64,000 nt of DNA from Gemmatimonadota bacterium (GTDB lineage Bacteria; Gemmatimonadota; Gemmatimonadetes; Longimicrobiales; Gaopeijiaceae). This document shows positions 1 through 13,619 of this stretch, in pieces. Within the stretch, counting starts at the first letter, position 1, and the number at the start of each line of letters is the position of its first letter. A model generated the notes under the pieces. The model did not search any database, was not told where the DNA came from, and saw only the letters and a list, made by a program, of their open reading frames with translations. The stretch covers positions 1 through 64,000 of the forward strand of contig JAJDYN010000035.1 of assembly GCA_022825135.1 (NCBI GenBank). The letters run 5' to 3'. The translations under genes and the position numbers were made by a program.

Positions 1-285
1 CCGGTGCTACCCGCGCCGACGGTTGCCTCGAAGTGCGCGGGCCGGTCGCTGGTGCGAGCTTGGTGGTACAAGGCCCAAGGGCTCGCGGATCTGGAACCGA
101 AGCGCGGGCGGGGCTGGCACTCGCTGAGGCGCAAGTTTGCGAGCGACCTGATGGACCAGCCGCTCAAGGTCCTCTGCGAGTTGGGCGGATGGAAGACCGC
201 CAAGACGGTGCTCGAATGCTACCAGCGAGCCGACGAGGGACAGCTTCGGAAGGCACTGGAAGCCCGCCGGAGACCACGCGGCTGA
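1..285 (+). CDS. Tyrosine recombinase/integrase, C-terminal fragment (cut by window edge)
   Basis: The reading frame is open from the first base to a TGA at 283-285, so the gene starts upstream of the window. The visible 94 residues hold the end of a tyrosine recombinase catalytic domain: a HxxR box (HSLRRKF), a GGW element in place of the usual LGH (ELGGWKTAKT) and the probable nucleophilic tyrosine in LECYQ near the C-terminus. Such enzymes cut and rejoin DNA through a 3'-phosphotyrosine and usually belong to integrative elements or phages. No other phage or element gene follows on the right, so this may be the edge of an element lying to the left. A GTG at 4 is only an internal codon. Confidence 0.75.
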   Translation, partial: PVLPAPTVASKCAGRSLVRAWWYKAQGLADLEPKRGRGWHSLRRKFASDLMDQPLKVLCELGGWKTAKTVLECYQRADEGQLRKALEARRRPRG

Positions 286-395
286 GGTTCTCCACTCGGC
301 GGGAGTCAGACAGCGGGAATCCGATCCAGAAATCCCATAACATCAAGTGATCGCACAAGATATAACCTTGAACGGTTCCGCCGTAACGCCATCAA

Positions 396-857
396 CTACT
401 CCACGTACGCCCACAGCCACTCCCGGCTCTCGCGGTCCAGCGCGCCGGTATCGCGCACGTAGTAGAGATCGCCGGAGACGTCCCGGATCAGGAAGCCCGC
501 AGCCGACACCTCCCGGGGCCAGTCGTCGCGCCTGGTCTGGAAGGAGCGCGGACCCTGGCGCGTCTCGACCCGCCAGTACCGGATCTCGACTTCCTCCTCC
601 ACTGCGTGGATGCGCGTCACCTCCAGCACGAAACCGGCCTCGGCGAGTGCATCCTCGAGGGCCGCGCGCGAGCTCGCGTCGAGTTCGCCCGCATCGCGCA
701 CCAGGGCGACCTCCTCGTCTTCGGCATCGCGCAGCGACACGAATCGTCCCGGCTCCGACCAGGGAAAGCAGCGGTGCACCTTCACCCGGACCTCGCGGTC
801 TCCGGTCCGCGCCCATAACTGTCCGTCGATTTGCCGCTCCAACCGCAGGCTTCGCAT
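396..857 (-). CDS. DUF1854 family protein, partner of the adjacent ABC transporter
   Basis: This 153-residue acidic protein resembles the DUF1854 family: an early RxVHRCFPWSEP segment, then FVSLRDAEDEEVALV, and a final part rich in W, Y and R (IRYWRVETRQGPRSF). It follows the ABC gene by 3 bases and has a strong ribosome binding site (GGGGAGG, 8 bases before ATG), so the two are probably co-transcribed. In other bacteria a DUF1854 protein next to this kind of ABC transporter has been named cyanophycin metabolism-associated, but no cyanophycin synthetase or cyanophycinase is present in this window, so that role is not supported here. There is no signal peptide. The molecular function is unknown. 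Confidence 0.75.
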   Translation of the reverse strand: MRSLRLERQIDGQLWARTGDREVRVKVHRCFPWSEPGRFVSLRDAEDEEVALVRDAGELDASSRAALEDALAEAGFVLEVTRIHAVEEEVEIRYWRVETRQGPRSFQTRRDDWPREVSAAGFLIRDVSGDLYYVRDTGALDRESREWLWAYVE

Positions 858-860
858 GTC

Positions 861-3170
861 TCAATCCTCCCCTTGCCGTGGACCCTGCAACTCCAACTGC
901 ATCTCGTGCAGGCGGCGATAGATGCCGTCCTGCTTCGCCAGCAGCTCCCCGTGCGTTCCGGCTTCCGCCAGCCTGCCGTCCTTCATCACGAAGAGGCGCG
1001 ATGCCCGGTGCAGCGTGGACAGGCGGTGCGCGATCGCGAACACCGTGCGCCCGGCCACCAGCCGGTCCAGCGCCTCCTGAATCTTCCGTTCCGTCTCCGT
1101 GTCCACCGCGCTCGTGGCCTCGTCGAGGATGAGGATGCGCGGATCGTGCAGGATCGCCCGCGCGATGGACACCCGCTGTCTCTCGCCGCCGGAGAGGGTC
1201 TGTCCCCGTTCTCCCACCACGGTGTCGTAGCCGTGCGGCAGGCGGCAGATGAAGTCGTGCGCGTTCGCTGCCCTGCCCGCTTCGATCACCCGTTCCAAAT
1301 CCGCCTCGGGATGTCCGTAGCGGATGTTCTCGACGACGGTGCCGTGGAACAGGTACGGGTCCTGGAGCACCATGCCCATCTGGCGGCGGTAGTGCCCGAT
1401 CTCGAGCGACCTGATGTCGACGCCGTCGATGCGGATGGTCCCGCCGGTGGTGTCGTAGAAGCGCGCGATCAGGTTGACGACCGTCGTCTTCCCGCCCCCC
1501 GACGGCCCCACCAGCCCGATCATCTCGCCGGGCTCCACGTCGAAGCTCACCCCGCGCAGGACCTGCCGCACGCCGTCGTACCCGAACGTCACCGAGTCGA
1601 AGGACACCCGGCCCGCCAGGGGCTCCAGGCGCACCGGACGCGGCTGCTCCACGATCTCCGGCTCGGTGTCGAGCACCTCGAAGACCCGGTGCGCCGAGCT
1701 CGTCGCCCGGTTCATGGTGCGCGCCATCTGGCCGATGATCTCCACCGAGCCGATGAACATGGTCGTGTAGAGCAGGAACGAGACGAAGGTGCCCGCGGAC
1801 AGACCGGGCTCCGCGCCGGGCCCTTCCAGCAGCCGCGGCAGCGCGAACGCCCACACCGCGACCGTGGTCCCGTGCACCGCAAGCATCAGCCCCGGCCAGA
1901 AGGTCGTCCACATGCGGTGGATGCGGTTGTACTCCTCCGTCACGCTCGCATTGCGCCGGTCGAAGCGCCGCGTCTCCCGCTCCTCCTGGTTGAAGGTCTT
2001 CACCACGCGCATGCCGGGGATCGTGTCGGAGAGGATGTCGGTCACGCCGGACCACTTGCGCCAGGCGCGCATGAAGAGGCGCTGGATGCGCTCCCCGTGC
2101 AGGAAGATGGCCCAGCAGAAGAGCGGAACCGGCGCCGTCATCACCAGTCCCAGCCTCCAGTCCAGGCTCACCAGCACGATGCCGAGTCCCGTCAGCATCA
2201 CCAGCGACAGCGACACGTCCACCACCCCGAAGGCCAGGAATTCCCACAGCCGGTCGGTGTCCGAACTCACGCGCGTGATGATGCTTCCGGTCTTCTTGCG
2301 CATGTAGAAGGACAGGGACAGCCTCTGCAGGTGCTCGTAGAGCTCGGTGCGCAGGTCGCGCGCCACCCACTCGCCCAGCACCGAGAGCATGCGCAGCCGC
2401 ACGAGGGCGCCCGCCTGGCGCACGACGTAGACCAGCGCCATCGCTCCCACGGCGACCCAGGCCGCCAGCGTGCCGCGGGAGAGGTCCAGCGTGCCGTCCC
2501 GCACGGGCCGGACGACGTCGTCCAGCAGGTATCCGGCGAGGTAGGGCGGGATCAGGCTCACCAGGGTGATCAGCCCCGCCGCCGCCAGCCCGATGGTCAC
2601 CTCCCTGCGGTACGGCCGGAGGTAGCCGAGCAGCCTCCAGATCACGGCCACGCGAGAGCCCGCGACCAGCGCCTGGGCCTCGCGGATCGGCGCCGCCACG
2701 CTCTCCGCGTAGGTTTCGTCCGGCTCCGCCGGCTCGACGCGTCTGCCGCGCAACTGCTCCTCGACCACGAAGCGCAGGTTTTCCATGGCGCGGCGCTGCC
2801 TGTGCGTGTAGCGCACTGTGGCGAGGGGCGGCTCGTCGGGCTCGGCCAGGAAGGACAACATGGTGCCGGACAGGCCCGGCGATTCGCTGACCGCCCTGAC
2901 CGAGGAGCGCGGAACGCTGCGGACCTCCCACTCGGCGGGTGCGTTCGCGGCACGGGAATCGTGACCTGCGATCTTCCGCCTGTGCGCCACGGCCAGGCAT
3001 TCAGCCCCCAGGGCGACCCAGGTCTCCGCCAAACGAAGCCTGGCGTCCAGGTCGGCCAGGGCGTATAGCTGCACCGGCGCGCCATCCCACTCCGCCTCGA
3101 TGGCGGCCCTCGCCCCGGCGGGCATTTTCCCCGGCTGGTTGGTGTACCGGGCGACGATCTCGCGGTCCAT
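861..3170 (-). CDS. ABC exporter, fused permease and ATPase with N-terminal extension
   Basis: The protein (about 769 residues) has an N-terminal soluble extension of roughly 180 residues, a six-helix exporter permease (roughly 180-490) and a C-terminal nucleotide-binding domain with Walker A (GPSGGGKTT), the LSGGERQRVS signature, Walker B (ILILDEATS) and the switch histidine (IAHRLS). It is a type IV half-transporter expected to work as a homodimer in the inner membrane; the substrate cannot be read from sequence. The extension looks like the one in ABC proteins paired with DUF1854, and a DUF1854 gene follows directly. The start is uncertain: ATG at 3170 follows a GGGGGGAG run, but TTG 3245 and ATG 3227 are in frame and open; I prefer 3170 because a terminator-like hairpin with its T-tract covers 3241-3293. 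Confidence 0.88.
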   Translation of the reverse strand: MDREIVARYTNQPGKMPAGARAAIEAEWDGAPVQLYALADLDARLRLAETWVALGAECLAVAHRRKIAGHDSRAANAPAEWEVRSVPRSSVRAVSESPGLSGTMLSFLAEPDEPPLATVRYTHRQRRAMENLRFVVEEQLRGRRVEPAEPDETYAESVAAPIREAQALVAGSRVAVIWRLLGYLRPYRREVTIGLAAAGLITLVSLIPPYLAGYLLDDVVRPVRDGTLDLSRGTLAAWVAVGAMALVYVVRQAGALVRLRMLSVLGEWVARDLRTELYEHLQRLSLSFYMRKKTGSIITRVSSDTDRLWEFLAFGVVDVSLSLVMLTGLGIVLVSLDWRLGLVMTAPVPLFCWAIFLHGERIQRLFMRAWRKWSGVTDILSDTIPGMRVVKTFNQEERETRRFDRRNASVTEEYNRIHRMWTTFWPGLMLAVHGTTVAVWAFALPRLLEGPGAEPGLSAGTFVSFLLYTTMFIGSVEIIGQMARTMNRATSSAHRVFEVLDTEPEIVEQPRPVRLEPLAGRVSFDSVTFGYDGVRQVLRGVSFDVEPGEMIGLVGPSGGGKTTVVNLIARFYDTTGGTIRIDGVDIRSLEIGHYRRQMGMVLQDPYLFHGTVVENIRYGHPEADLERVIEAGRAANAHDFICRLPHGYDTVVGERGQTLSGGERQRVSIARAILHDPRILILDEATSAVDTETERKIQEALDRLVAGRTVFAIAHRLSTLHRASRLFVMKDGRLAEAGTHGELLAKQDGIYRRLHEMQLELQGPRQGED

Positions 3171-3240
3171 TCTCCCCCCGTGCCTCTTCATCTCCTCCCG
3201 CCTCTTCATCTCCGCGCGCTGTCGCATCACTCCCTCACTC

Positions 3241-3293
3241 CGCAAAAGAAAACGGCCCGTCGAGTCCGCCGTGGAAGCGGACCCGATGGGCCG
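3241..3293 (-). terminator. Intrinsic-terminator-like hairpin in the leader of the ABC operon
   Basis: Two nested perfect stems are visible: an outer CGGCCC (3253-3258) with GGGCCG (3288-3293) and an inner GTCCGC (3264-3269) with GCGGAC (3277-3282), loop 3270-3276. Read on the minus strand the hairpin is followed at once by a T-rich tract (TTTTCTTTTG, 3252-3243). It points into the ABC gene about 70 bases before its likely start. There is no convincing minus-strand gene just upstream for it to terminate, so it may be an attenuator of the ABC-DUF1854 operon, or it may simply block read-through. Confidence 0.6.
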
Positions 3294-3880
3294 GACTTTC
3301 TCGGAAAAGCCTCTGGCTCTGTTAGGGTTCAGCCTCCCGGGGCGGGGTGCCCCCGGCGACGTGCGCTGCCGCGCGGCCGGCGGGCACGACGATCCGGAAT
3401 TGCACCGGAGCGGGACGCACGCGCGCCCTCCGGGCCCGGATCGGATGGAATTGAGGAACTCTCATAAGCCGGTCGATGATTTTATCGAGTTGATGGCGGG
3501 CTCGATGTGGCGTCGGCCTGCCCTGGATCGATGCGTTTGCCTGCCGGAACCCCCGCCGGAGCCGTGGCGGGAAGCCGGGCAGTTGCCCCTGTACGCTCGG
3601 CCGATGCGTCAGGTTTCAGACCTCCATCGCGGACTTGCGGCCCGTCCGCCGAGCGGAGCCCGGTCTCCAACGCTCCCACTCGCCCTTGCAGCCTGTTTGG
3701 AGTTTGCGGTATTCTCGTGCGCATAAACCGATGAATCGAGATTAGATCGTACTCGTGATCGCTTTTAATGACAGTATCGGTGCCATATCGGCGCGAAGGA
3801 AGGCGCGAGACCACGAAGCCGCGCGGAGCCGCTGACATGCAATCGAGACCTTCGGCTCCCACTGCGGGACGGAGCACACG
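3294..3880. other. Long intergenic region with no recognised gene
   Basis: About 590 bases separate the leader hairpin of the ABC operon from the GPP34-P450 gene. Open frames on both strands here give low-complexity R/P/A-rich products with no recognisable domain and I do not accept them. The stretch 3690-3790 is more A/T-rich than its surroundings and is the likely promoter area for the plus-strand gene at 3881. It must also contain the promoter of the minus-strand ABC operon. I saw no tRNA and no named riboswitch. Confidence 0.6.
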
Positions 3881-5878
3881 ATGCTGAGGTTTGCGGAGGA
3901 AATCCTTGTTCTCGTCCTGGACGAGGAGCGGGGAGATCTGGGCCCCAACCTGCCCGCGCGCTCACTCGACCTGGCGCTCGCCGGAGCAGTGCTGATGGAT
4001 CTCGCGCTCGAGGACCGCATCGACACGGATCTCGAGCGCCTGATACTCGTGGATCCCACGCCCTTCGGCGACGATATCCTCGATCCGACGCTCGCCGAGA
4101 TCGCGAAGGACGGTCGATCGCGCGACACGGCCTATTGGCTCGGCCGGATCGCTGCGCGCGGAGACGGCATCCGGCGCACCGCGCTCGCCCGTCTTATCGA
4201 GCGCGGAATCCTGAGATCGGAGGCGCAGGGGCTTCTGTCGCTGGTTCCCAGCGTGTCCCGATCGCGGCTCTATCCCGCTGCCGACGGGCAGCCGGTCGAA
4301 GAAGCCAGGCTGCGGATCATGCGGATCCTGTTCAGCGACGAGGTTCCCGACCCGCGCGACATTGCGATCATCGCGCTGGCAAACGCCTGCGGCGTGTTCC
4401 GCACCATTCTGTCGTCGGAGGAGCGGGAGCAGGTCGAGGATCGCATCGACTTGCTGAAGAACCTCGACCTGATCGGCCGGACGATGAGCCTGGCGATCGA
4501 AGGACTCAAGGAGCCCGACGATCCGCCTCCGGGGCCTCGGCGACTGAAGGAGATCCCGGTGGTGCCGGGCCTTCCGCTGGTGGGCAACGGCCTGGCCATG
4601 CGGAAGGGAGTCGTGACCTTCCTTGCACGCCAGCACCGTAAGCTGGGTCCAATCTTCAGAATACGTGTTCCGGGGCGCCGGTTCGTGTGCATCGCGGGGC
4701 CGGAAGCGGCCAATTTCCTGACCTCGCGCGGAAAGACCGTGTTCCGGTCGCTCGAGCCCATGGCGAACTTCCACAAGCAGATGGACGCATCGCGTTCGAT
4801 CCTGACCATGGACGGGATCGATCACGTCATGACACGGAAGGCCCAGGCCAGGGGGTACGCCGTCCGGGTCATGAGGGACCGGTCGCAGGAGGTTGTCGAC
4901 ATCACGCGCGACGAACTCGGCAAGTGGCCGGTGGGAGAACCCTTCGAGGCGCTGCCGGCATTCCAGAACGTCATCGCCGAGCAAATGGGCTACATGATGG
5001 CGGGCTATTCGCCGCAGGGCTACAGGCGCGAACTTTGCACACTCCTCGGCGGGTTGCTCCTCAGCGCCTCGGTGTTTCCGCACATCATGAAGCTCCCGCG
5101 GTACCGGCGTGCCCGCGCACGAGGCCAAGAGCTGGCCCGGGCGGTTCTCGCGCACAAGCGCAAGGTGGGGCCACGCAGATCGACGCCGGACTTCATCGAT
5201 CTGATGCTCGAGCTGCGCGAGGCCGATCCCCAACTCCTGCCCGAGACCAACCTGAACCTGACCGTGCTGGCGCCGTACATGGTCGGACTGGATACCACGG
5301 CGAGCACGTGTGGGTTCATGCTCTACAACATGCTGAAGCGTCCGGGGCTCATGGAGCGCATGACCGCCGAGGCGGACGCCCTGTTCGCGGAGGGCCCGGT
5401 GTCCGGCGAGGGGTTGCGGGGGCTCGATGTCTCGCGCCGCGTGGCGATGGAAACCCTGCGGCTTCATCCGGTCTCGCCCGCCGTACTTCGGACGACCGCC
5501 AACTCGTTCGAGTTCGCGGGTCACAGGGTCCCCGCGGGCACCCAGGTCATGATCGGCACGGCGGTCGGGCACACGCTCGAAGAGTTCTTTCCGGACCCGG
5601 AGCGCTTCGACATCGACCGCTACACGCCGGCTCGCGGCGAACACCGGCAACGCGGGGCCTACGTTCCCTTCGGGGCCGGCAACCACCGGTGCCTCGGCAG
5701 CGGTCTCGTCCCGGTCCAGCTCGGCCTCACCATGGCCACGATACTGAGGGAACTCGTTCTGGAACCGCTCGATCCGGATCATGCGCTGCGGGTGAGATCG
5801 TTCCCGACCATGCAGCCGGTGGACTTCAGGGTCCGTGTGCTCGCTCGCCGGACGCACGACGCTGCACTGGCCAACTGA
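3881..5878 (+). CDS. GPP34 domain-cytochrome P450 fusion protein
   Basis: The 665-residue product joins two domains. Residues 1 to about 205 match the GPP34 (Golgi phosphoprotein 3) fold: an opening with an LVLDEERGDLG segment, LALAGAVLMDLAL, a VDPTPFGDDILDP segment and ERGILR. From about 220 a complete cytochrome P450 follows: a proline-rich hinge (PVVPGLPLVGNG), I-helix G469-x-D-T-T, ExxR at E524-R527 and the heme loop FGAGNHRC with the thiolate ligand Cys604. In eukaryotes GPP34 binds phosphatidylinositol 4-phosphate at membranes; bacterial members are little studied. I infer a membrane- or lipid-docked monooxygenase, substrate unknown. There is no N-terminal signal. ATG 3881 has GGAG 9 bases upstream, and no stop or frameshift separates the domains, so the fusion is real in this assembly. 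The next gene, an acyltransferase, begins within 20 bases. Confidence 0.9.
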   Translation: MLRFAEEILVLVLDEERGDLGPNLPARSLDLALAGAVLMDLALEDRIDTDLERLILVDPTPFGDDILDPTLAEIAKDGRSRDTAYWLGRIAARGDGIRRTALARLIERGILRSEAQGLLSLVPSVSRSRLYPAADGQPVEEARLRIMRILFSDEVPDPRDIAIIALANACGVFRTILSSEEREQVEDRIDLLKNLDLIGRTMSLAIEGLKEPDDPPPGPRRLKEIPVVPGLPLVGNGLAMRKGVVTFLARQHRKLGPIFRIRVPGRRFVCIAGPEAANFLTSRGKTVFRSLEPMANFHKQMDASRSILTMDGIDHVMTRKAQARGYAVRVMRDRSQEVVDITRDELGKWPVGEPFEALPAFQNVIAEQMGYMMAGYSPQGYRRELCTLLGGLLLSASVFPHIMKLPRYRRARARGQELARAVLAHKRKVGPRRSTPDFIDLMLELREADPQLLPETNLNLTVLAPYMVGLDTTASTCGFMLYNMLKRPGLMERMTAEADALFAEGPVSGEGLRGLDVSRRVAMETLRLHPVSPAVLRTTANSFEFAGHRVPAGTQVMIGTAVGHTLEEFFPDPERFDIDRYTPARGEHRQRGAYVPFGAGNHRCLGSGLVPVQLGLTMATILRELVLEPLDPDHALRVRSFPTMQPVDFRVRVLARRTHDAALAN

Positions 5879-5895
5879 ACCAGGCACCAGGTCTC

Positions 5896-7098
5896 TTGAC
5901 CGGCGCACCCACCCGGGTCACCATCCCGCGCTACCACTCCCTCGACCGGCTGCGCGCATCCATGATGCTGCTCGGAGTGGTGCGGCACGCCGCGATGAGC
6001 TACGAGCCCACTGTTTTCGAGGCGTGGCCGTACAAGGACCCCCAGGCCGACGTCCTCGTCCACTGGTTGATCGTCTTCATCCGCGTGTTCCAGTTACCGG
6101 TCTTCTTCGCGATTGCGGGGTTCTTCGCGGCATACCTGGTCCAGGCGCGCGGCATCCGGGGGTTCCTGGGGCATCGATGGAGCCGGGTCGGGGTGGTGTT
6201 CCTGGTGGCGTGGCCCGTGGTGGCGGGCACGATGTATTTCGTGGTGACGTTCGCCTCCCGGTTCAGTTCCGTCCCGCCGAGCCATACCTACAGCGTGGAC
6301 GAGCTGACCACGGCCCATGCTTTGCGCTACATCTTCATGCACCTGTGGTTCCTTTATCATCTGATGATTCTCTGCGTGGTCGCGAGCGGTGTGCGGTTGC
6401 TCGTCGTCCGCATCCCGGAAGGCGTGCGCGCCCGGGCGCTGGACCTCTGCGAGCGTCTGGTGCACCGGGGGGGCATCGCGGTGCTGGCCCTGGCCGCGGG
6501 CGCCATACTGTACCGGATGCAGTCGTGGGAAATCGACTACTACGCCGGCCCGTTCCCACCCCTGCGCATGCTGGCGCTGTGGGGGTTGTTCTTCGCGTTC
6601 GGCTGGTTGCTGTTCTGCCGCCGAGAGACGCTGGAAGGCTTCAAGCGTCCGGCATGGCCCCTTTTCGCCGCCGGAATCGCGTGCTTCTTCGCCTACCGAT
6701 TCTTCGCTGACGCTGGCTGCCACGCCGGCCCGGACAGAGTCTGCACGGGAACTTCGGAGGTATACCACCTGGGGACCGTCGTCTTCCTCTCACTGTCCAT
6801 GTGCGCGTTGGCCTATAGCCTCATCGGACTGTTCCTGCGCTACATGAACCGGCCGAGCCCGCGCTGGCGTTACATGGCGGACGCCTCCTACTGGATCTAC
6901 ATCGTCCACGTGCCGTTCGTGATCATGTTGCCCCTCCTCTTCGCGAGGATACCGCTTCCCGGGATCGTCAAGCTCGCGCTTGTCGTGACGATGGCCACCG
7001 GCCTGATCCTGTTGACCTACCGGTACTTCGTGCGGTCCACCTTCATCGGGAAACAGCTCAACGGGCGCCGCTACCCGCGAGGCGCGGTCACGCCCTGA
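5896..7098 (+). CDS. Acyltransferase-3 family membrane protein (OpgC-like)
   Basis: This is a multi-pass membrane protein of about 400 residues. The first helix region carries the family's opening (YHSLDRLRASMMLLGVVRHA), with the His-Asp-Arg pattern typical of acyltransferase 3, and about ten hydrophobic segments follow. Members move acetyl, succinyl or other acyl groups onto sugars, lipids or antibiotics; glucan biosynthesis protein C is one relative. The frame is open upstream into the P450 gene, but there is no ATG before 5962; TTG at 5896, 18 bases after the P450 stop, is the best start. The close spacing suggests co-transcription and perhaps a shared lipid or natural-product substrate, which is inference. 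Confidence 0.8.
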   Translation: MTGAPTRVTIPRYHSLDRLRASMMLLGVVRHAAMSYEPTVFEAWPYKDPQADVLVHWLIVFIRVFQLPVFFAIAGFFAAYLVQARGIRGFLGHRWSRVGVVFLVAWPVVAGTMYFVVTFASRFSSVPPSHTYSVDELTTAHALRYIFMHLWFLYHLMILCVVASGVRLLVVRIPEGVRARALDLCERLVHRGGIAVLALAAGAILYRMQSWEIDYYAGPFPPLRMLALWGLFFAFGWLLFCRRETLEGFKRPAWPLFAAGIACFFAYRFFADAGCHAGPDRVCTGTSEVYHLGTVVFLSLSMCALAYSLIGLFLRYMNRPSPRWRYMADASYWIYIVHVPFVIMLPLLFARIPLPGIVKLALVVTMATGLILLTYRYFVRSTFIGKQLNGRRYPRGAVTP

Positions 7099-7102
7099 CG
7101 GC

Positions 7103-7894
7103 TCAGCGGCCCTCTTCCACCTGGGCGTACGCGTCGTGCTCGTGGATCGACTCGTAGTTGACCACGTGGACCCTGAACCAGGTGACCTTCGTGAGTGCCC
7201 GCAGCCGGAGCGTGACCTCGCGCACCAGGTCCTCCACGAAACGCGGGTTGTCGTACGCCCGCTCGGTGACCCATTTCTCGTCCGACCGCTTGAGCACGGG
7301 GTAGAGGTCGCACGACGCCGATTCGTCGACCAGCTCCACGAGGTCCTCGATCCACAGCTCGCCGTCGAAGCGCACCTCCACCGTCACGATCCCGCGCTGA
7401 TTGTGGGCGCCGCGGGCGCTGATCTCGCGCGAGCACGGACAGACCGTCGTCACAGGCACCTTCACCGTCAGGACGAAGTCGTCCTCCGCTCCGCTGGAAG
7501 CGTCGAAGACGCAATCGTATGACAGCAGACCCCGGGCCCGGGTGATCGGCGCCCTCTTTTCCATGAAGTACGGGAACGAAACGCGCAGGTGCGCGGTTGC
7601 CGCGTTCAGGCGCTTGCGCATGGTTCGCAGAATGGTCGGCAGGGCCTCGACCGAGATCTCGCCGTCGTGGGAGTTCAGGATCTCCATGAAGCGGCTCATG
7701 TGGGTCCCCTTGAAGTGAGAGGGGAGATCCACGGACATGTCGACGGAACTCACGGTATGCTGCGCGGTCTTGCGCCGGTCTCGCACCGCGATGGGGAAAC
7801 GGATGTTCTGAACGCCGACCTTGGCGATGGGAACCTCGCGCTGGTCGGGGATCGCCTGCACGTCCGCAAGCGGCGTCTGGAGCGTCTCTGTCAT
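7103..7894 (-). CDS. folE2: GTP cyclohydrolase FolE2 (type IB)
   Basis: The 263-residue protein converts GTP to 7,8-dihydroneopterin triphosphate, the entry step for tetrahydrofolate and for 7-deazaguanines such as queuosine. FolE2 is recognised by DLPSHFKGTHMSRF near residue 60, the metal/catalytic cysteine region VTTVCPCSREIS and the late HEHDAYA segment. Type IB enzymes use metals other than zinc and often replace FolE under zinc limitation. The ATG at 7894 overlaps the stop of the MazG-like gene by 4 bases (ATGA), so translation is coupled. QueE lies two genes upstream, which points to queuosine precursor supply. Confidence 0.93.
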   Translation of the reverse strand: MTETLQTPLADVQAIPDQREVPIAKVGVQNIRFPIAVRDRRKTAQHTVSSVDMSVDLPSHFKGTHMSRFMEILNSHDGEISVEALPTILRTMRKRLNAATAHLRVSFPYFMEKRAPITRARGLLSYDCVFDASSGAEDDFVLTVKVPVTTVCPCSREISARGAHNQRGIVTVEVRFDGELWIEDLVELVDESASCDLYPVLKRSDEKWVTERAYDNPRFVEDLVREVTLRLRALTKVTWFRVHVVNYESIHEHDAYAQVEEGR

Positions 7895-8262
7895 GTGTCT
7901 TCCGACCCGCCGGCGGGTTCCGGGCTGGCCACGCGTCGCCCGTCGATCTTTCGCATCTTCTGCTCCACGACGGTCGCGAGGTCGATTCCACGGCTGTTCG
8001 CGAAGTTGATGAGCGCAATACACACGTCGGCGGCCTCGTCTTCGAAAGCCGCATCTTCGACGCTGCGGCCCTTCCACACCTTCTTTTCGAGGTTGGCCAG
8101 CTCGCCGGTTTCGCCAGCCAGTTCAAGGGCGAAGAAGCGGGGCGGGCGGACGGGGAAGGCGGCTGCCTGATAGCGCCGAAACTCCGATTGCAGGGTTCGC
8201 AGTCCGCCGTAGCCGGCGGGCAGCATTCGGCTGGCTGATTCCCGCGAGGTGTTGTCGGGCAT
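7891..8262 (-). CDS. MazG-like nucleotide pyrophosphohydrolase
   Basis: A 123-residue all-alpha protein with the MazG/NTP-PPase metal site: an E-x-x-E-x-x-E helix (ELAGETGELANLEKK) and a second helix E-x-x-D (EDEAADVCIALINFA). The family hydrolyses NTPs or modified nucleotides to monophosphate and pyrophosphate. It shares a 4-base overlap with folE2, so it is translated with it. It could act on a (d)NTP or on the dihydroneopterin triphosphate made by FolE2; the latter is speculation from context. A second, distinct MazG protein is encoded at 12130-12456 next to queG. Confidence 0.8.
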   Translation of the reverse strand: MPDNTSRESASRMLPAGYGGLRTLQSEFRRYQAAAFPVRPPRFFALELAGETGELANLEKKVWKGRSVEDAAFEDEAADVCIALINFANSRGIDLATVVEQKMRKIDGRRVASPEPAGGSEDT

Positions 8263-8362
8263 GTGTGAACTCTTATCCGGTCAGGTCGGGCGGCCGGTCC
8301 GCCCGGCCCGGGAGAAAATGCCACAAACGTTGCATGTTGTCGACGCTAACGCCGGAGCCGCC

Positions 8363-9085
8363 TCAAACGCCCTTCGCGTCTGCGCCCCAGATGTGCTTGT
8401 GGAGCTGGGTCTGGAAGCGGACCGGCAAGCCATCCTCCAGAATCCAGCCGGCCATCTCCTCGAGGTTCGTCTCCCCCCACACAGGCGACATCAGCAGGGC
8501 GTTCAGCGATCCGTCCCCGACGCGGTCCCCGAGGCCCCGCTCGGAGATGACGTCCCGAGCCCACTGGTAGTCGGCTCGATCCCGGACGACGAACTTCACC
8601 TCGTCCCGGGCGGTCAGGTGGTCGAGGTTCGACCACAGGTTGCGCGCGACCTCGCCCGATCCCGGGCACTTCAGGTCCATGATCTTGTGCGCGCGCGGAT
8701 CGAGCGGTCCGACATCAATGGCTCCGGACGTCTCCACCAGCACGGTGAACCCCTCTTCCAGCAGCCGGTCCACCAGCGTGTAGGCGCCTGCCTGTGCGAG
8801 CGGCTCCCCGCCCGTGAGCTCCACCAGGTCGCATCCGTGCGCGCCCACCGCGGCGATGATCGCGTCGAACGACATGCGCTCCCCCCCGCTGAATGCATAG
8901 GCCGTGTCGCACCAGACGCAGCGGAGCGGGCATCCGGTCAGGCGCACGAAGGTGCAGGGCATCCCCGCCCAGGTCGACTCCCCCTGGATCGAGTGGAAGA
9001 TCTCGGTCACGCGCAGCGATTCCCTGCGGACGGACGGGCGCGACGGGGCCTCCGCAGCGGAAAGATCGCTTCCGGCCTCCGTCAT
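8363..9085 (-). CDS. queE: 7-carboxy-7-deazaguanine synthase QueE (radical SAM)
   Basis: The 240-residue enzyme converts carboxytetrahydropterin to 7-carboxy-7-deazaguanine, the ring contraction step of queuosine and related nucleosides. The radical SAM cluster motif CxxxCxxC is Cys52, Cys56 and Cys59 (GCPLRCVWCDTAY), preceded by the family's SIQGES segment and followed by the SAM-binding LTGGEPL. KFVVRDRADY and LLMSPVWGE match QueE. The start ATG overlaps the stop of the preceding unknown gene by 4 bases. QueD and QueC are not in this window, so the pathway must be completed elsewhere; QueG for the last step is encoded on the other strand at 12453-13619. Confidence 0.94.
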   Translation of the reverse strand: MTEAGSDLSAAEAPSRPSVRRESLRVTEIFHSIQGESTWAGMPCTFVRLTGCPLRCVWCDTAYAFSGGERMSFDAIIAAVGAHGCDLVELTGGEPLAQAGAYTLVDRLLEEGFTVLVETSGAIDVGPLDPRAHKIMDLKCPGSGEVARNLWSNLDHLTARDEVKFVVRDRADYQWARDVISERGLGDRVGDGSLNALLMSPVWGETNLEEMAGWILEDGLPVRFQTQLHKHIWGADAKGV

Positions 9086-9516
9086 CCCGCCTGCTCCTCC
9101 CGGCGCTCGATCCCTTCGTCGAGCAGCGACTTCACCCGGTCCAGCGGCAGCTCGCGCAGCCGTCCCTCGGCGGCGGGGCGTCCCCGCTCGCGGCAGAGCA
9201 CCGGTGTCTGCACGTGTCCGATCACGCCGAGCCCGGTGGCCGCCCAGCGCGGAAACACGAGGTAGCCGACGTAGGGCGCGCGCAGGTCCGGCGTCTGCTC
9301 CACCTCGAGCGACACCGTGTACGGGTGCCCGTCCGCGCCCTCGAAGGCCGGCGGCCGGTCGTGCGTATCCAGGTAGCCGCCCAGGGTCGCGTCGGGCACG
9401 CCGTGGACGTGGTCGGGCTCGTGGCTGGAGCCCCCGCGAGCGCCATCCGCCGCCGTTGCGGGCGCGTCGTTCTCGCTGCGCCGGTCATGGTGCACGGTTC
9501 GTGGCATGTCGTTCAC
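9082..9516 (-). CDS. Unknown protein between a DNA methyltransferase and queE
   Basis: A 144-residue protein I do not recognise. Its N-terminal 50 residues are polar and His/Asp-rich (HEPDHVHGVPDATL); the middle holds YTVSLEVEQTPD and YVGYLVFPRW, which look like beta strands; the end is a charged helix. There is no signal peptide or membrane helix. It overlaps both neighbours by 4 bases (stop/start ATGA junctions), so it is translationally coupled to the methyltransferase before it and to queE after it. That tight arrangement argues it is a genuine gene and possibly related to deazaguanine or nucleic-acid modification, but no function is claimed. Confidence 0.7.
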   Translation of the reverse strand: MNDMPRTVHHDRRSENDAPATAADGARGGSSHEPDHVHGVPDATLGGYLDTHDRPPAFEGADGHPYTVSLEVEQTPDLRAPYVGYLVFPRWAATGLGVIGHVQTPVLCRERGRPAAEGRLRELPLDRVKSLLDEGIERREEQAG

Positions 9517-10478
9517 GGTGAGTTGTCCACGGGCACCGCAGCGGCTGGCGGGCCTTCCGCCAATCCCGAAGCCCGCGGTTCAAGCCCCTCCCACTGCACC
9601 TCCGGCACCCCCGCGAATCTCTTCGCCATCACGTCCAGGGCCTCGGGGTTGTTGTCCACGAGGATGAAACGGCGTCCCAGCTCGTGCGCCGCCATCCCCG
9701 TGGTGCCGCTCCCCGCGAAGAAGTCGAGCACCAGGTCTCCCGGGCGGGATGAAGCCGTCACGATGCGCCGGAGGATGCCCAGCGGCTTCTGGGTGGGATA
9801 CCCGGTTCGCTCCGCGCCGCTGGTGGGCACGATGGTGTGCCACCAGGTGTCGGTGGGCAGTTTCCCGCGCGCGGCCTTGTCGGGACCCACCAGCCCCGGC
9901 GCCATGTACGGGATTCTCTCGATCGCGTCCACGTCGAAGACGTAGTCCGACGGGTTCTTGACGTAGAACAGGATGTTGTCGTGCTTTGCCGGCCACCGCG
10001 TCTTCGGCCTCGCCCCGAAATCGTAGGCCCAGATGATCTCGTTCAGGAGGTTGTCCGGCCCGAACAGTTCGTCGAGAAGGAAGCGGCAGCGGTGCACCTC
10101 CCGGTAATCGATGTGGAAGTAGAGCGACCCGTGCGGGGCGAGGACGCGGTACGCCTCGACCAGTCTCGGCTCGAGAAAGGCGAGGTAGTCGTCGAAGCTG
10201 TCTCCGAACCGCCTGGTGCCCAGGGTCGCGGTCCTGTAACGCGCCCCCTTGAAGCCCGTGCGGTCACCGTTGCGCGCGCGCGTGGTGCGGATGCGGGTGT
10301 GCCGCTGCGTCCTGCCGGTATTGAAGGGCGGGTCGATGTAGATGAGGTCCGCCAGCCCGTCCGGCAGGCCGCGGAGCACCTCGAGGTTGTCTCCCAGCAG
10401 GATGCGGTTCAAGTCTCTTCCAGGTTTGCGGTCCCGACTCCAGGTTCGGCGATCCCGTCCGAGCGCCGGCCCCGTCAT
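9513..10478 (-). CDS. Site-specific DNA methyltransferase (amino-methyl, beta-type order)
   Basis: The 321-residue protein carries the catalytic DPPF motif (residues 49-52, IYIDPPFNTG) first and the SAM-binding FAGSGTT motif (254-260) near the C-terminus, with TQKP before it. That order is the beta class of N6-adenine or N4-cytosine methyltransferases. The region between (60-230) would hold target recognition. No restriction endonuclease is adjacent, so it may be a solitary methylase. It heads a tightly overlapping minus-strand group with an unknown gene and queE, followed after 100 bases by MazG-like and folE2 genes. The product base and target sequence cannot be read from the sequence. Confidence 0.9.
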   Translation of the reverse strand: MTGPALGRDRRTWSRDRKPGRDLNRILLGDNLEVLRGLPDGLADLIYIDPPFNTGRTQRHTRIRTTRARNGDRTGFKGARYRTATLGTRRFGDSFDDYLAFLEPRLVEAYRVLAPHGSLYFHIDYREVHRCRFLLDELFGPDNLLNEIIWAYDFGARPKTRWPAKHDNILFYVKNPSDYVFDVDAIERIPYMAPGLVGPDKAARGKLPTDTWWHTIVPTSGAERTGYPTQKPLGILRRIVTASSRPGDLVLDFFAGSGTTGMAAHELGRRFILVDNNPEALDVMAKRFAGVPEVQWEGLEPRASGLAEGPPAAAVPVDNSP

Positions 10479-10541
10479 TCACACCCGCAAACTAGGACCG
10501 ACCGGCGGGGGATCAAGCCACGGTGGCCATGGCGTCGGTAG

Positions 10542-11058
10542 AGCCAGCACCAGGCGGGCCGCCGCCGGCTCGTTGCCGGGCAACCGTCCCGTGGCCGGGG
10601 AAGGTATCGATCCCCCGGCGCCTATCGACGAAACCAGAACTTCATCGGACCAGCCGGTTGCTCCATCGAGGACGCTACGTTCGTTCCCATCGGTGCGGAC
10701 AAGCTTCTGGATGCCATGGGCATCTGGGAGCGGTACATGCACCAGGACCATCCTGACCGCCTGATCCAGCTCGCCATCCTGCATGCCGAGTTTGAGGCGC
10801 TTCACCCGTTTCATGACGGCAATGGCCGCATCGGCCGCATGCTCGTCCCGCTGTTCATGTGGGAGCGTCCAGATTGCCCGTGAGACCGCCCCTTCGCCGC
10901 CAACGGCACGAAGAATCCTGCAGCGGCTGTGTGACGCCGATATACTTCACGAAGCTGTCCCCGGACGAGGCCGTCGACCCGGGCTCTTTGTGTTCCCCCG
11001 CCTCCTGCGCGTCGTGGAGGGCAGCGAGCCCATGAAACCCGAGGAACCCAACCGATGA
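10542..11058 (+). pseudogene. Fic-domain protein, degraded remnant
   Basis: Two pieces of a Fic protein remain in different frames. The first, open between stops at 10539 and 10881, encodes YRRNQNFIGPAGC, the usual approach to the Fic core, and the catalytic loop HPFHDGNGRIGR. It ends at once in a TGA (10881-10883), with most of the following core helices missing. The second piece, one frame over, encodes a C-terminal winged-helix-like end (RRILQRLCDADILHEA, LFVFPRLLRVVEG) and stops at 11056-11058. The N-terminal part with the inhibitory helix region is absent. An intact Fic enzyme would AMPylate target proteins; this one cannot be made. Its last codons overlap the start of the next gene. Confidence 0.8.
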
Positions 11059-12080
11059 AATCCGCGCTGTTCCACGAATACGGCGGTCCGGAGGTCGTAC
11101 GTATCGAGGAGGTGCCCGATCCGGTGCCCGGCCCCGGCGAGGTACGGATCGCCGTGCGGGCGGCCGCGATGAACCACCTCGACCTGTGGGTGCGGCGCGG
11201 CCTGCCCATCGACATCGCGCTGCCGCACATCGGCGGGTCGGACATCGCGGGAGTGGTGGACGCTGTGGGTCCCGGCGCCGCGCACGTTCCGGTCGGTACG
11301 CGGGTGGTGGTGGACCCCTCGCTGGACTACGACTGGTACGATGGCGCCGCGGCCGGGCGCACCCTGCCGTCCCGTGAGCTCCGGATCGTCGGTGAACACA
11401 CGCCGGGCGGCTTCGCCGACTACGCCGTGGTGCCCGCCGCCAACCTGGTCGAGGTCCCGCCGGATGTCCGGTTCGAGGACGCCGCCGCCGCCAGCCTGGT
11501 CGGGGTGACCGCCTGGCACGCGGTGGTGGTGCGCGGACAGGTCCGCCCCGGCGAGCGGGTGCTGGTGACCGGTGCGTCGGGGGGCGTCTCCACCATGGCC
11601 GTACAGATGGCGCGGCACGCGGGCGCGGTGGTGTACGCGGTCACCAGCGGGGCCGACAACGTCGCCCGTGTCCGCGAGCTGGGGGCAGACGTCGTCTACG
11701 ACCGGCTGGAGGTCGACTACGCACGCGCTCTCTGGAAGGACACCCGCAGGCAGGGCGTCGACCTGATCGTGGACTCGGTCGGCGCGGCCACCTGGAAGTC
11801 GAATCTGCGCGCCCTGCGCCAGAGCGGCCGTCTGGTCTGCTACGGAGCCACCACCGGCCCCGTCGGCGAGACCAGCCTTCCCCTCCTCTTCTGGAAGAAG
11901 GCGTCGATCCTCGGCAGCACCATGGGCACGCCCGCCGACTACCGCCGGGCGATGCAGCTCGTCTTCGACGGCGTCATCCGGGCCCCCATCGACGAGGTCC
12001 TCCCGCTCGGGCGGGCGCGCGAAGCGCACGGGCGGCTCGAGGCGGGCGAGGTCTTCGGCAAGCTGGTGCTGCGGCCGTGA
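11055..12080 (+). CDS. MDR-superfamily alcohol dehydrogenase/quinone oxidoreductase
   Basis: A 341-residue medium-chain dehydrogenase/reductase. The N-terminal GroES-like half is followed by a Rossmann domain with the glycine-rich NAD(P) loop TGASGGVSTMA around residue 170. The position that binds catalytic zinc in true alcohol dehydrogenases is occupied by Asn (AAMNHLDLWVRRG), and no four-cysteine structural zinc lobe is present (residues 90-115 contain no Cys), so it may act without zinc as a quinone or enal reductase. It starts on an ATG overlapping the tail of the Fic remnant. Substrate unknown. Confidence 0.85.
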   Translation: MKSALFHEYGGPEVVRIEEVPDPVPGPGEVRIAVRAAAMNHLDLWVRRGLPIDIALPHIGGSDIAGVVDAVGPGAAHVPVGTRVVVDPSLDYDWYDGAAAGRTLPSRELRIVGEHTPGGFADYAVVPAANLVEVPPDVRFEDAAAASLVGVTAWHAVVVRGQVRPGERVLVTGASGGVSTMAVQMARHAGAVVYAVTSGADNVARVRELGADVVYDRLEVDYARALWKDTRRQGVDLIVDSVGAATWKSNLRALRQSGRLVCYGATTGPVGETSLPLLFWKKASILGSTMGTPADYRRAMQLVFDGVIRAPIDEVLPLGRAREAHGRLEAGEVFGKLVLRP

Positions 12081-12456: not shown

Positions 12457-13619
12457 AGTCCGCCGCCGAACTCCGCGACCGCATCGGTGAACGCGCCCGC
12501 GCCCTCGGTTTCGACCGTGTGCGCTTCACCACCCCGGCAGCCAGCGGGCACATGGACTTCTACCGCCGCTGGATCGAGGAGGGCGCCCACGGCGAGATGG
12601 GCTACCTCGCCCGGGAGGACTCCATCGCGCGCCGGGGCGACCTCCGCCTCACCATGGCGGACGTGCGCTCGGTCGTGCTCGTGACCCACAACTACTACCA
12701 GCCCGATCCTCCCGGGCTCGCGGAGGACCGGGAGCGCGCCGTGATCGCCCGCTACGCGCGCGGGGACGACTACCACGACGTCATCAAGCGGCGCCTTGTG
12801 AAGCTGCTCGCCGAGGTCGCGCGGGACGCCGGACGCCGCGTCTCCGGGCGCGCCTATGTGGATACGGGCCCGATCCTCGAGCGCGAGCTGGCCTCGCGCG
12901 CGGGGCTCGGATGGCTGGGGAAGAACACGATGCTGATCCACCCGGGGAGCGGCTCGTATTTCTTCCTGGGAATCCTGCTCCTCGACCTCGAGCTGCCGGA
13001 GGATGAGCCCTTCACCGAGGACCGCTGCGGGACCTGCCGGAGCTGCCTCGACGCCTGTCCAACCGGCGCCCTGCTGGGACGCGATGCGCGGGGCGCGCCG
13101 GTCATGGATGCGCGGCGCTGCATCTCCTATCTGACCATCGAGCACCGGGGGCCGATCCCCCGCGAGCTGAGGGCTCCGATCGGCAACCGCATCCATGGCT
13201 GCGACATCTGCCAGGAAGTATGTCCCTGGAACGTGAAGTTTCAGACGCCCGCCGGCGAGCCGGCGTACCGCGCGCGGCCGGAGCTGGACGGCCCGTTGCT
13301 GGTGGAGCTGGCCGAGCGCCTCCTCGCCATGGACGATGCCGCGTTCTCACGCGCCTTCCGCGGCTCTCCCATCAAGCGGGCCAGGCGCAACGGCCTGCTG
13401 CGCAACGTCTGCGTGGGGCTCGGGAACCAGGGAGGCGAGGATGCGGTTGCCGTGTTGATCCGGGCGCTTCACGACAGGGCGCCGCTGGTGCGTGGGCATG
13501 CGGCATGGGGGCTCGGGCGAATCCCGGAGTCAACGGAGGCGTCAGCCGCGTTGCGCGCGCGCATGGAGGTGGAAGACGACGCCTCGGTGCGCGAGGAGAT
13601 TGCGCGGGCGCTGGATTAG
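12453..13619 (+). CDS. queG: Epoxyqueuosine reductase QueG
   Basis: The 388-residue protein performs the last step of queuosine formation, reducing epoxyqueuosine in tRNA to queuosine with a cobalamin cofactor and two 4Fe-4S clusters. The N-terminal half has the nitroreductase-like cobalamin domain (LGWLGKNTMLIHPG is typical). The clusters are bound by the ferredoxin-like CxxCxxCxxxCP (CGTCRSCLDACPTGA) and CDICQEVCPWN. The C-terminal 70 residues form HEAT-type helices (AVLIRALHDRAPLVRGHAAW) that help bind tRNA. The start is GTG 12453, overlapping the mazG stop. Confidence 0.94.
   Translation: MKSAAELRDRIGERARALGFDRVRFTTPAASGHMDFYRRWIEEGAHGEMGYLAREDSIARRGDLRLTMADVRSVVLVTHNYYQPDPPGLAEDRERAVIARYARGDDYHDVIKRRLVKLLAEVARDAGRRVSGRAYVDTGPILERELASRAGLGWLGKNTMLIHPGSGSYFFLGILLLDLELPEDEPFTEDRCGTCRSCLDACPTGALLGRDARGAPVMDARRCISYLTIEHRGPIPRELRAPIGNRIHGCDICQEVCPWNVKFQTPAGEPAYRARPELDGPLLVELAERLLAMDDAAFSRAFRGSPIKRARRNGLLRNVCVGLGNQGGEDAVAVLIRALHDRAPLVRGHAAWGLGRIPESTEASAALRARMEVEDDASVREEIARALD

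Follow-up and report, generated by a model that had tools for sequence, protein, structure and literature searches.

A GPP34 domain fused to a cytochrome P450 and paired with an acyltransferase gene in Gemmatimonadota: a candidate unit for membrane lipid remodelling

Background

The GPP34 (Golgi phosphoprotein 3) domain is known in eukaryotes as a reader of phosphatidylinositol 4-phosphate (PI4P). Passages of two papers on GOLPH3 place its PI4P pocket at W81, R90, R171 and R174 (PMC4414131) or at R90, R171, N172 and R174 (PMC12494035), and the second also describes a hydrophobic hairpin that enters the bilayer with an acidic face over it. GOLPH3-like proteins were previously undescribed in prokaryotes according to part of a 2025 paper (PMC12402492). 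Here we describe a gene in which a GPP34 domain is joined to a cytochrome P450 and which is followed by an acyltransferase-3 (AT3) gene, in the draft genome of a Gemmatimonadota bacterium. The stretch of DNA analysed, called the window below, comprises positions 1 to 64,000 (64,000 nucleotides) of contig JAJDYN010000035.1 (assembly GCA_022825135.1).

Enzymes of sterol metabolism are the second point of reference. Steroid clusters (ERG24, CYP51 and LSS, often with a sterol methyltransferase, SMT) occur in ten phyla of Ircinia symbionts including Gemmatimonadetes, with horizontal transfer, according to a portion of PMC9531527, and a portion of PMC10070321 reports that sponge-symbiont SMTs are functional and produce 24-isopropyl sterols, and that many homologues of SMT have sdmA/sdmB nearby. 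The word GPP34 is absent from the main texts of both papers. No title or abstract describing a GPP34-P450 fusion was found in the literature searched, which held few preprints and subscription journals and in which "GPP34" is confounded by the unrelated insecticidal Gpp34; as far as these searches reach, the architecture is undescribed, both component families being already known.

Results and discussion

The fusion gene and the adjoining acyltransferase gene

Positions 3881-5878 of the plus strand form a single 665-codon open frame with an ATG start (Table 1). A reading of the sequence alone had suggested that this frame joins a GPP34 domain to a complete P450, and Pfam bears this out: GPP34 (PF05719) matches residues 5-204 (E 3.2e-38, 132 bits against a curated cut-off of 29.1) and p450 (PF00067) matches residues 229-630 (E 4.4e-53). 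The P450 catalytic set is complete, with D471-T472, E524/R527 and C604. The positions first given for the heme cysteine and for ExxR (524-527) are exact, and these residues are invariant in 36/36 fused proteins chosen for alignment, each of which matches both Pfam families.

The fusion is followed, as had also been proposed, by an AT3 gene, with 17 bases between the fusion stop codon and a probable TTG start at 5896; its own stop codon ends at 7098. Acyl_transf_3 (PF01757) matches residues 14-375 of the product (E 2.5e-22, 79.8 bits against a cut-off of 31), in which a simple hydropathy count gives eight transmembrane-like stretches. R20 and H31, which form an R-x10-H pair that we take to be the motif of the Acyl_transf_3 family, are invariant in 15/15 aligned relatives. 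The closest NCBIfam model is MdoC/OpgC, at 145.2 bits against a cut-off of 338 bits; by that model, therefore, the acyltransferase is not a glucan succinyltransferase.

Table 1. Features of the fusion-acyltransferase locus in window coordinates
Feature	Position	Strand	Basis
GPP34-P450 fusion gene, 665 aa, ATG	3881..5878	+	open frame, Pfam, homologous fusions
GPP34 (GOLPH3/Vps74-like) domain, residues 5-204	3893..4492	+	PF05719, profile against 3kn1, AlphaFold2 and Foldseek
Linker, 24 residues (205-228), partly low-confidence	4493..4564	+	residues 211-221 with pLDDT < 50
Cytochrome P450 domain, residues 229-630	4565..5770	+	PF00067; CYP51 is the top PDB sequence and fold match
I-helix VGLDTT (residues 468-473), acid-alcohol pair D471-T472	5282..5299	+	sequence, alignment
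ExxR, E524-T-L-R527	5450..5461	+	sequence, alignment
Heme-binding motif FGAGNHRCLG with C604	5669..5698	+	sequence, alignment
TGCCTCGGCAGCGG, codons of C604-L-G-S-G, uninterrupted in the window	5690..5703	+	identical 14 bases flank the integrative element in relatives
Acyltransferase-3 (PF01757) gene, 400 aa, probable TTG start	5896..7098	+	Pfam, hydropathy, alignment
Two-gene unit (fusion and acyltransferase), DNA conserved without the window's flanks	3867..7087	+	nucleotide matches in ten loci

The fusion as a family

Loci are designated by L-numbers, genomes of a 200-genome set from the phylum by G-numbers and contigs by C-numbers. In the phylum set, the P450 half has 43 matches at E 1.7e-47 or better, of which 41 lie in one open frame with GPP34. 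The others are G078:C17 (105260-105918), where the GPP34 match is divided over two frames, and G123:C96, which has a P450 match without a GPP34 match. When weaker P450 matches (from E 2.0e-29) were compared with the fusion loci by position, only G067:C12 (L152, cut by a contig end) and a 3' remnant in G128:C42 coincided with a fusion locus.

Distribution outside the phylum was taken solely from a scan of a genome-contig collection, of which we considered the best 80 of 132 relatives. Both halves were found in 31 of these (L005-L035), 29 of them in one frame; the fusion, which the sequence-only reading proposed to seek in related genomes, was found in both sources. The halves are parted in L012 (6001-7998) by one in-frame stop in the linker and in L034 (1534-3512) by a frame change in the linker; these copies and G078:C17 represent decay, fission or assembly error. 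The contigs of L027 and L035 end within the P450. In the best segments of L005-L027, identity to the window is 79-92%, and the L033 fusion sits in a 5.18 Mb record titled as a chromosome. The ratio of nonsynonymous to synonymous divergence (dN/dS) over seven comparisons is 0.15-0.24 for GPP34 and 0.19-0.23 for P450, indicating that both halves are maintained by purifying selection.

In a tree of 20 fused and 11 solo domains, the fused GPP34s form one clade (support 99/94). For the P450 halves, a quick tree that included three unfused rows gives one clade with an SH-aLRT value of 99; once the P450 of G123 is added, its support is 83/59. A single origin of the P450 halves is thus present in the best tree, weakly held, and not established. 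Among P450s without GPP34, the best match is that of G123:C96 (L202, 2377-4767, minus strand), at 29% identity. By eye, its frame continues after the P450 into two domains resembling those that bind cyclic nucleotides; it looks like another unusual P450 fusion.

The GPP34 half lacks most of the PI4P pocket

A profile built from 31 GPP34 domains matches yeast Vps74 and human GOLPH3 (E 3.3e-21 for 3kn1); the three remaining sequences listed have E values of 0.24 or more. The AlphaFold2 model of residues 1-217 has a predicted local distance difference test score (pLDDT) of 92, and all seven Foldseek matches at E <= 0.001 are GOLPH3 or Vps74, with template modelling (TM) scores on the query of 0.75 for 9qpq and 0.70 for 3kn1; structure prediction of this part, suggested at the outset as a check, thus returns the GOLPH3/Vps74 fold. 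The full-length model has a pLDDT of 83.9 and a predicted TM score of 0.66, falling below a pLDDT of 50 in linker residues 211-221.

The PI4P pocket was scored at GOLPH3 W81, R90, R171 and R174, leaving out N172. In the profile alignment these positions correspond to P25, A34, D95 and R98 of the window protein, so that one of the four is kept. The same columns in the 36 aligned fused proteins hold, in order, W in 0/36, R in 0/36, R in 1/36 and R in 21/36. Seven close solo GPP34s lack each of the first three residues (7/7 each), and three of four more distant solo GPP34s have K at the R171 position. Because three of the four pocket residues are replaced, the description of this domain as a PI4P reader is unsupported, and docking through PI4P, which the sequence-only reading had implied, is not borne out. 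As judged from alignment and predicted structure, this bacterial GPP34 group keeps the GOLPH3 fold but is without the PI4P pocket.

Strands 111-113 and 119-121 of the model coincide with the aligned GOLPH3 hairpin region, near which the fused proteins have approximately four more residues than aligned solo relatives. The GPP34 match begins at protein residue 2-5, so there is no N-terminal arginine tail for binding coatomer.

Around solo GPP34 genes (49 loci, L036-L084), synteny is lineage-specific only. In eight Acidimicrobiia-type records (L042, L043, L052, L055, L066, L068, L074 and L079), the solo GPP34 gene and a gene that by eye is P450-like lie next to each other in divergent orientation; this pair may be the fusion in split form. 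The window's genome also encodes another GPP34 protein (G000:C28; L115 4914-5645, minus strand), which has, by eye, an alanine-rich tail and adjoins a fatty-acid-desaturase-like gene.

The P450 half resembles CYP51

All 50 Foldseek matches listed for the P450 half are P450s (from E 8e-20). The top PDB match is CYP51 both in sequence (E 2.2e-35) and in fold, the latter being the CYP51 of Methylococcus capsulatus (7jj1; TM score 0.82 on the target, 26% identity). A second group of fusions, the C3 type (24 loci: L116, L118-L134, L136, L137, L151, L152, L203 and L204), has P450 halves approximately 32-34% identical to that of the window. At the position of the acid-alcohol pair the aligned proteins of this type have TAM-YMGDQVG, IASV-YLGDAFS and similar sequences (e.g. 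L116, 6016-8046), the heme cysteine and ExxR being intact. As the I-helix acid-alcohol pair is missing, the chemistry of the C3-type P450s may differ, and they may use an unusual mode of oxygen activation or catalyze another reaction.

Partner genes differ between subfamilies

Eleven gene classes were scored in 80 loci, the identity of partners coming from one or two representatives per class (PF19298, PF02544, PF01073, PF08498 and PF13469). Collection and phylum-genome loci partly overlap (L139 and L025 seem to be one contig) and the two sets were therefore not summed. Among the 23 window-type loci (L005-L027), all 14 uncut ones have an adjoining AT3 gene, that of L009 being cut by the contig end, so the acyltransferase neighbour is conserved as the sequence-only reading had supposed. 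The other nine are cut, eight by an insertion after C604 (L016-L022 and L024) and L027 by its contig end. L028 has an AT3 gene approximately 0.9 kb further on from the fusion. Nine other loci (L029-L034, L145, L147 and L153) have a sulfotransferase gene touching or nearly touching the fusion (PF13469 in the two scanned); the sulfotransferase of L147 is adjoined by a CysN/APS-kinase protein.

In the C3 type, a Rieske/KshA_C-like gene as in L116 lies within the fetched flank in 19/24 loci, three of the remaining five (L118, L127 and L152) being cut by contig ends; the sister-type locus L150 also has a Rieske gene. C3-type loci further contain SMT (13/24), a 3beta-hydroxysteroid dehydrogenase (HSD)/SdmB-like dehydrogenase (5/24) and steroid 5-alpha-reductase (3/24). 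The top NCBIfam matches are SdmB for the HSD and SdmA for the Rieske protein, both far under cut-off. An AcrB-type gene of the resistance-nodulation-division (RND) class occurs in the fetched flank of 22/24 C3-type fusions (e.g. L116, 9868-13050, minus strand) and is a possible lipid or drug export partner. An mpaB/rubber-oxygenase-type protein was also observed near the fusion in four loci: L203 (9207-10418, minus strand; PF09995), L204, L120 and L128.

Sterol genes in the window's genome and across the phylum

The genome of the window (3.54 Mb, 93% complete) has four P450 places, two of which are GPP34 fusions. The second fusion (C3:40069-42036) is preceded by a Rieske/KshA_C gene and followed by a 3-beta-HSD-like gene (NCBIfam SdmB 209 bits and HpnA 205 bits, both under cut-off) and a steroid 5-alpha-reductase gene (PF02544, E 1.1e-51). 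An SMT lies at C20:53553-53732 (E 2.9e-21; Sterol_MT_C at the protein level, E 1.1e-20). No PF13243 match, i.e. no cyclase of the squalene-hopene or oxidosqualene type, was found in this 93% complete genome, and de novo sterol synthesis was rejected on that ground. The squalene-epoxidase family gives a single match, a fragment of 35 positions (E 6.5e-4), which exceeds the cut-off only together with its in-frame neighbours.

Across the 200 phylum genomes, the fusion is present in 21/23 genomes with a Sterol_MT_C match versus 8/177 without (Fisher p ~7e-20, kinship ignored). The underlying table is 21/8/2/169, in which G149 is counted as a non-fusion genome because only a 3' P450 remnant was found there, together with a contig-end SMT that adjoins a Rieske gene. 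G096, one of the 23 SMT genomes, is represented by a 25-position match only. SMT in most fusion genomes and cyclase in few make most of these bacteria look like sterol modifiers rather than makers; 21 of the 29 fusion genomes have no cyclase among the matches listed, although a gene may be missing from a draft genome, and the other eight, with such matches, are discussed below.

Possible mobility of the two-gene unit and an integrative element at Cys604

In ten loci (L008, L010-L015, L026, L142 and L144), which include other genera as well as records labelled with other phyla, nucleotide similarity to window positions 1-12000 starts at 3867-3881 and ends at 7082-7087, flanks being compared over up to 6 kb. 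Loci L011-L013, labelled Caldilineaceae (Chloroflexota), have common flanks, as do L015 and L026, labelled Acidobacteriota; L011 and L015 have only the fusion-acyltransferase pair in common. Synonymous divergence from the window is 0.45-0.63 for L011 and L015 versus 0.42-0.49 for L008, a Gemmatimonadota record. This pattern agrees with the two genes having passed recently from one phylum to another, the bin labels being those of the submitters. Three records titled Gammaproteobacteria (L006, L023 and L025) contain the window's flanking genes at approximately 90% identity, which makes that label doubtful; they are probably mislabelled Gemmatimonadota.

Two close relatives of the window, L007 and L014, are in records named Palauibacter. 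Palauibacter belongs to the Palauibacterales (PAUC43f), a lineage recorded in at least 30 species of sponge according to part of PMC10469786. Judged by these relatives, the window would come from a sponge.

In relatives of the window, an integrative element is located exactly at the codons of heme Cys604. In L197 it measures approximately 10 kb and encodes a Phage_integrase and a GmrSD protein, and the 14 bases TG(C/T)CTCGGCAGCGG are found at both of its ends (2466-2480 and 12569-12583). Junctions were collected from 13 loci (L016-L022, L024 and L197-L201): eight have only the left, four only the right and L197 both, the nine left junctions sharing one arm and the five right junctions another. 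This element family thus seems to use the codon of a P450 active site as its attachment site. A group II intron was considered as the cause of the break after C604, and Rfam at gathering thresholds gave no match in eight loci; the break in L197 is an insertion with a tyrosine recombinase. Window positions 4-285 encode, by eye, the C-terminal part of a tyrosine recombinase resembling the integrase of the L197 element, the right arm of which was looked for in the window and not found.

Proposed function and alternative explanations

What is observed at this locus is the fusion, its folds and catalytic residues, the partner synteny and a two-gene unit that recurs in different surroundings. The explanation we put foremost, at a confidence just short of even, is that a membrane-peripheral P450 hydroxylates a lipid of the sterol class (or another polycyclic terpenoid), which is here then acylated. 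Bacterial P450s are normally soluble, and GPP34 would replace the N-terminal membrane anchor that they usually lack. It would act as a peripheral membrane adaptor through its hairpin and surface contacts rather than through PI4P, hold the heme domain at the inner membrane, where lipophilic substrate is located, and present a bilayer lipid to the heme pocket. The P450 half would hydroxylate this lipid and the adjoining membrane acyltransferase esterify the new hydroxyl, a step that in sister subfamilies would be replaced by sulfotransferase (L029-L034 type) or by enzymes acting on the sterol nucleus and side chain. Sterol-modifying genes are present in the window's genome and a cyclase was not detected, so the bacterium probably acquires the lipid instead of making it, plausibly from a sponge host. 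Oxidation of a lipophilic substrate followed by conjugation, as suggested from the sequence alone, fits the wider family with its sulfotransferase or sterol-modifying neighbours; the pathway itself, meaning membrane docking, substrate class, order of steps and host origin of the substrate, is what we infer. Their neighbour genes make sterol the most likely substrate of the C3-type fusions. For the window type, a sterol is proposed because of its homology to the C3 type and the SMT of its genome, and this is the weakest step of the proposal.

Several observations weigh against this explanation. The window fusion lies outside any sterol cluster, with no sterol gene recognised beside the pair and the acyltransferase as its only constant neighbour; L135 and L148 have fusions with none of the tested partner classes, and in L012 and L034 the open frame is broken between the halves. 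The CYP51 likeness may be no more than that of lipid P450s in general: in the fold search, BM3-type and CYP3A structures come close to CYP51 in score, and the best NCBIfam P450 models are terpene oxygenases and those of ribosomally synthesized peptides (RiPPs), far below cut-off. Membership in CYP51 itself was rejected, as the I-helix signature of that family has His-Thr; the window has VGLDTT, and the C3 type is also without the signature. AT3 enzymes in known cases mostly acylate sugars. The co-occurrence with SMT is confounded by kinship, the fusion genomes falling in five genus codes (g1, g2, g4, g16 and g51) of 93, and 8/29 fusion genomes have no SMT match. Finally, a cyclase match at E < 1e-45 is present in four of the 29 (G061, G098, G162 and G173) and a short match over cut-off, covering approximately 100/319 positions near E 1e-8, in G054, G056, G060 and G072, so that some may make sterols or hopanoids.

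We consider another explanation possible, if somewhat doubtful: the window P450 and acyltransferase may act on a non-sterol lipid or lipophilic product (a carotenoid, a polyketide or a fatty acyl chain), only the C3 subfamily being sterol-related. The isolation of the pair from sterol genes, its recurrence alone in other phyla, the modest identity of the window and C3 P450 halves and the near-matches to terpene oxygenases speak for this, but the fused GPP34s form one clade, the same genome has a sterol-cluster paralogue and an SMT, and CYP51 leads both the sequence and fold matches. A detoxification pair, which in the manner of phase I and phase II enzymes would inactivate a sterol, a terpenoid or another substance with which the host defends itself, appears improbable to us. 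Three observations agree with such a role: the conjugating enzyme paired with the P450 varies (AT3 or sulfotransferase), RND-type genes lie near 22/24 C3-type fusions, and the pair recurs in different surroundings. The C3-type neighbours (SMT, HSD, 5-alpha-reductase and Rieske), however, resemble tailoring rather than degradation.

Docking on a membrane marked by PI4P or another phosphoinositide can draw on the clear GPP34 fold and GOLPH3 homology and on the retention of R174 as R98 (R in 21/36 fused proteins), yet the replacement of W81, R90 and R171, with no W, no R and one R in the respective columns of the 36 proteins, makes it very hard to credit. A joining of two separate genes by assembly or chance read-through, to which the four deviating relatives (G078:C17, G123:C96, L012 and L034) might be thought to point, we regard as ruled out for practical purposes by the one-frame relatives (41/43 and 29/31), the purifying selection on both halves and the chromosome-length record of L033.

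If the proposed sterol chemistry is extended to the whole family, the GPP34-P450s might be a dedicated sterol-remodelling family of sponge-associated bacteria, mostly non-makers, in which a Golgi-type adaptor that does not bind PI4P offers membrane sterol of the host to the P450, lineage-specific partners acylate, sulfate, methylate or reduce it, and the fusion-acyltransferase pair is a mobile unit between phyla within sponges; we offer this as a speculation that we would not expect to hold in full. Overall, the data suggest a little-studied bacterial route of remodelling membrane lipids such as sterols. The bacterial GPP34 domain, whose prokaryotic role is nearly unstudied according to part of PMC12402492, gains a concrete enzymatic partner, and the PI4P pocket appears not to be retained in this group. 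A P450 architecture is added to the question of which organisms make or edit unusual sponge sterols, with a bearing on sterane biomarkers. The gene sets are testable: the fusion with the acyltransferase, with the sulfotransferase, or with SMT and Rieske. The arrangement may also serve as a natural model for fitting P450s with a membrane adaptor.

Comparison with known systems

The window GPP34 resembles GOLPH3 and Vps74 in fold and overall sequence profile, two of its strands lying at the position of the GOLPH3 hairpin region; it differs in the replacement of three of four PI4P pocket residues, the lack of a coatomer tail and the enzyme fused to it. SCO4440 of Streptomyces coelicolor likewise has a bacterial GPP34 domain but was studied in connection with wall-deficient cells, according to part of PMC12402492, the main text of which does not contain the term P450.

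The best sequence and fold match of the P450 half is to CYP51, a sterol enzyme, including the CYP51-ferredoxin fusion of Methylococcus capsulatus (7jj1 and 6mcw), another bacterial P450 with an accessory domain attached. In that protein ferredoxin lies behind the P450, whereas here GPP34 lies in front; the partner genes differ, the window I-helix reads VGLDTT rather than having the His-Thr signature, and identity in the fold alignment is 26%. With the steroid clusters of sponge symbionts, as described in portions of PMC9531527 and PMC10070321, the family shares clustered SMT, sdmA/sdmB-like or P450 genes, symbiont phyla and horizontal transfer. The core of those clusters is LSS/ERG7, CYP51 and ERG24, whereas here it is GPP34-P450 with Rieske and SMT or HSD, in a genome without a cyclase match.

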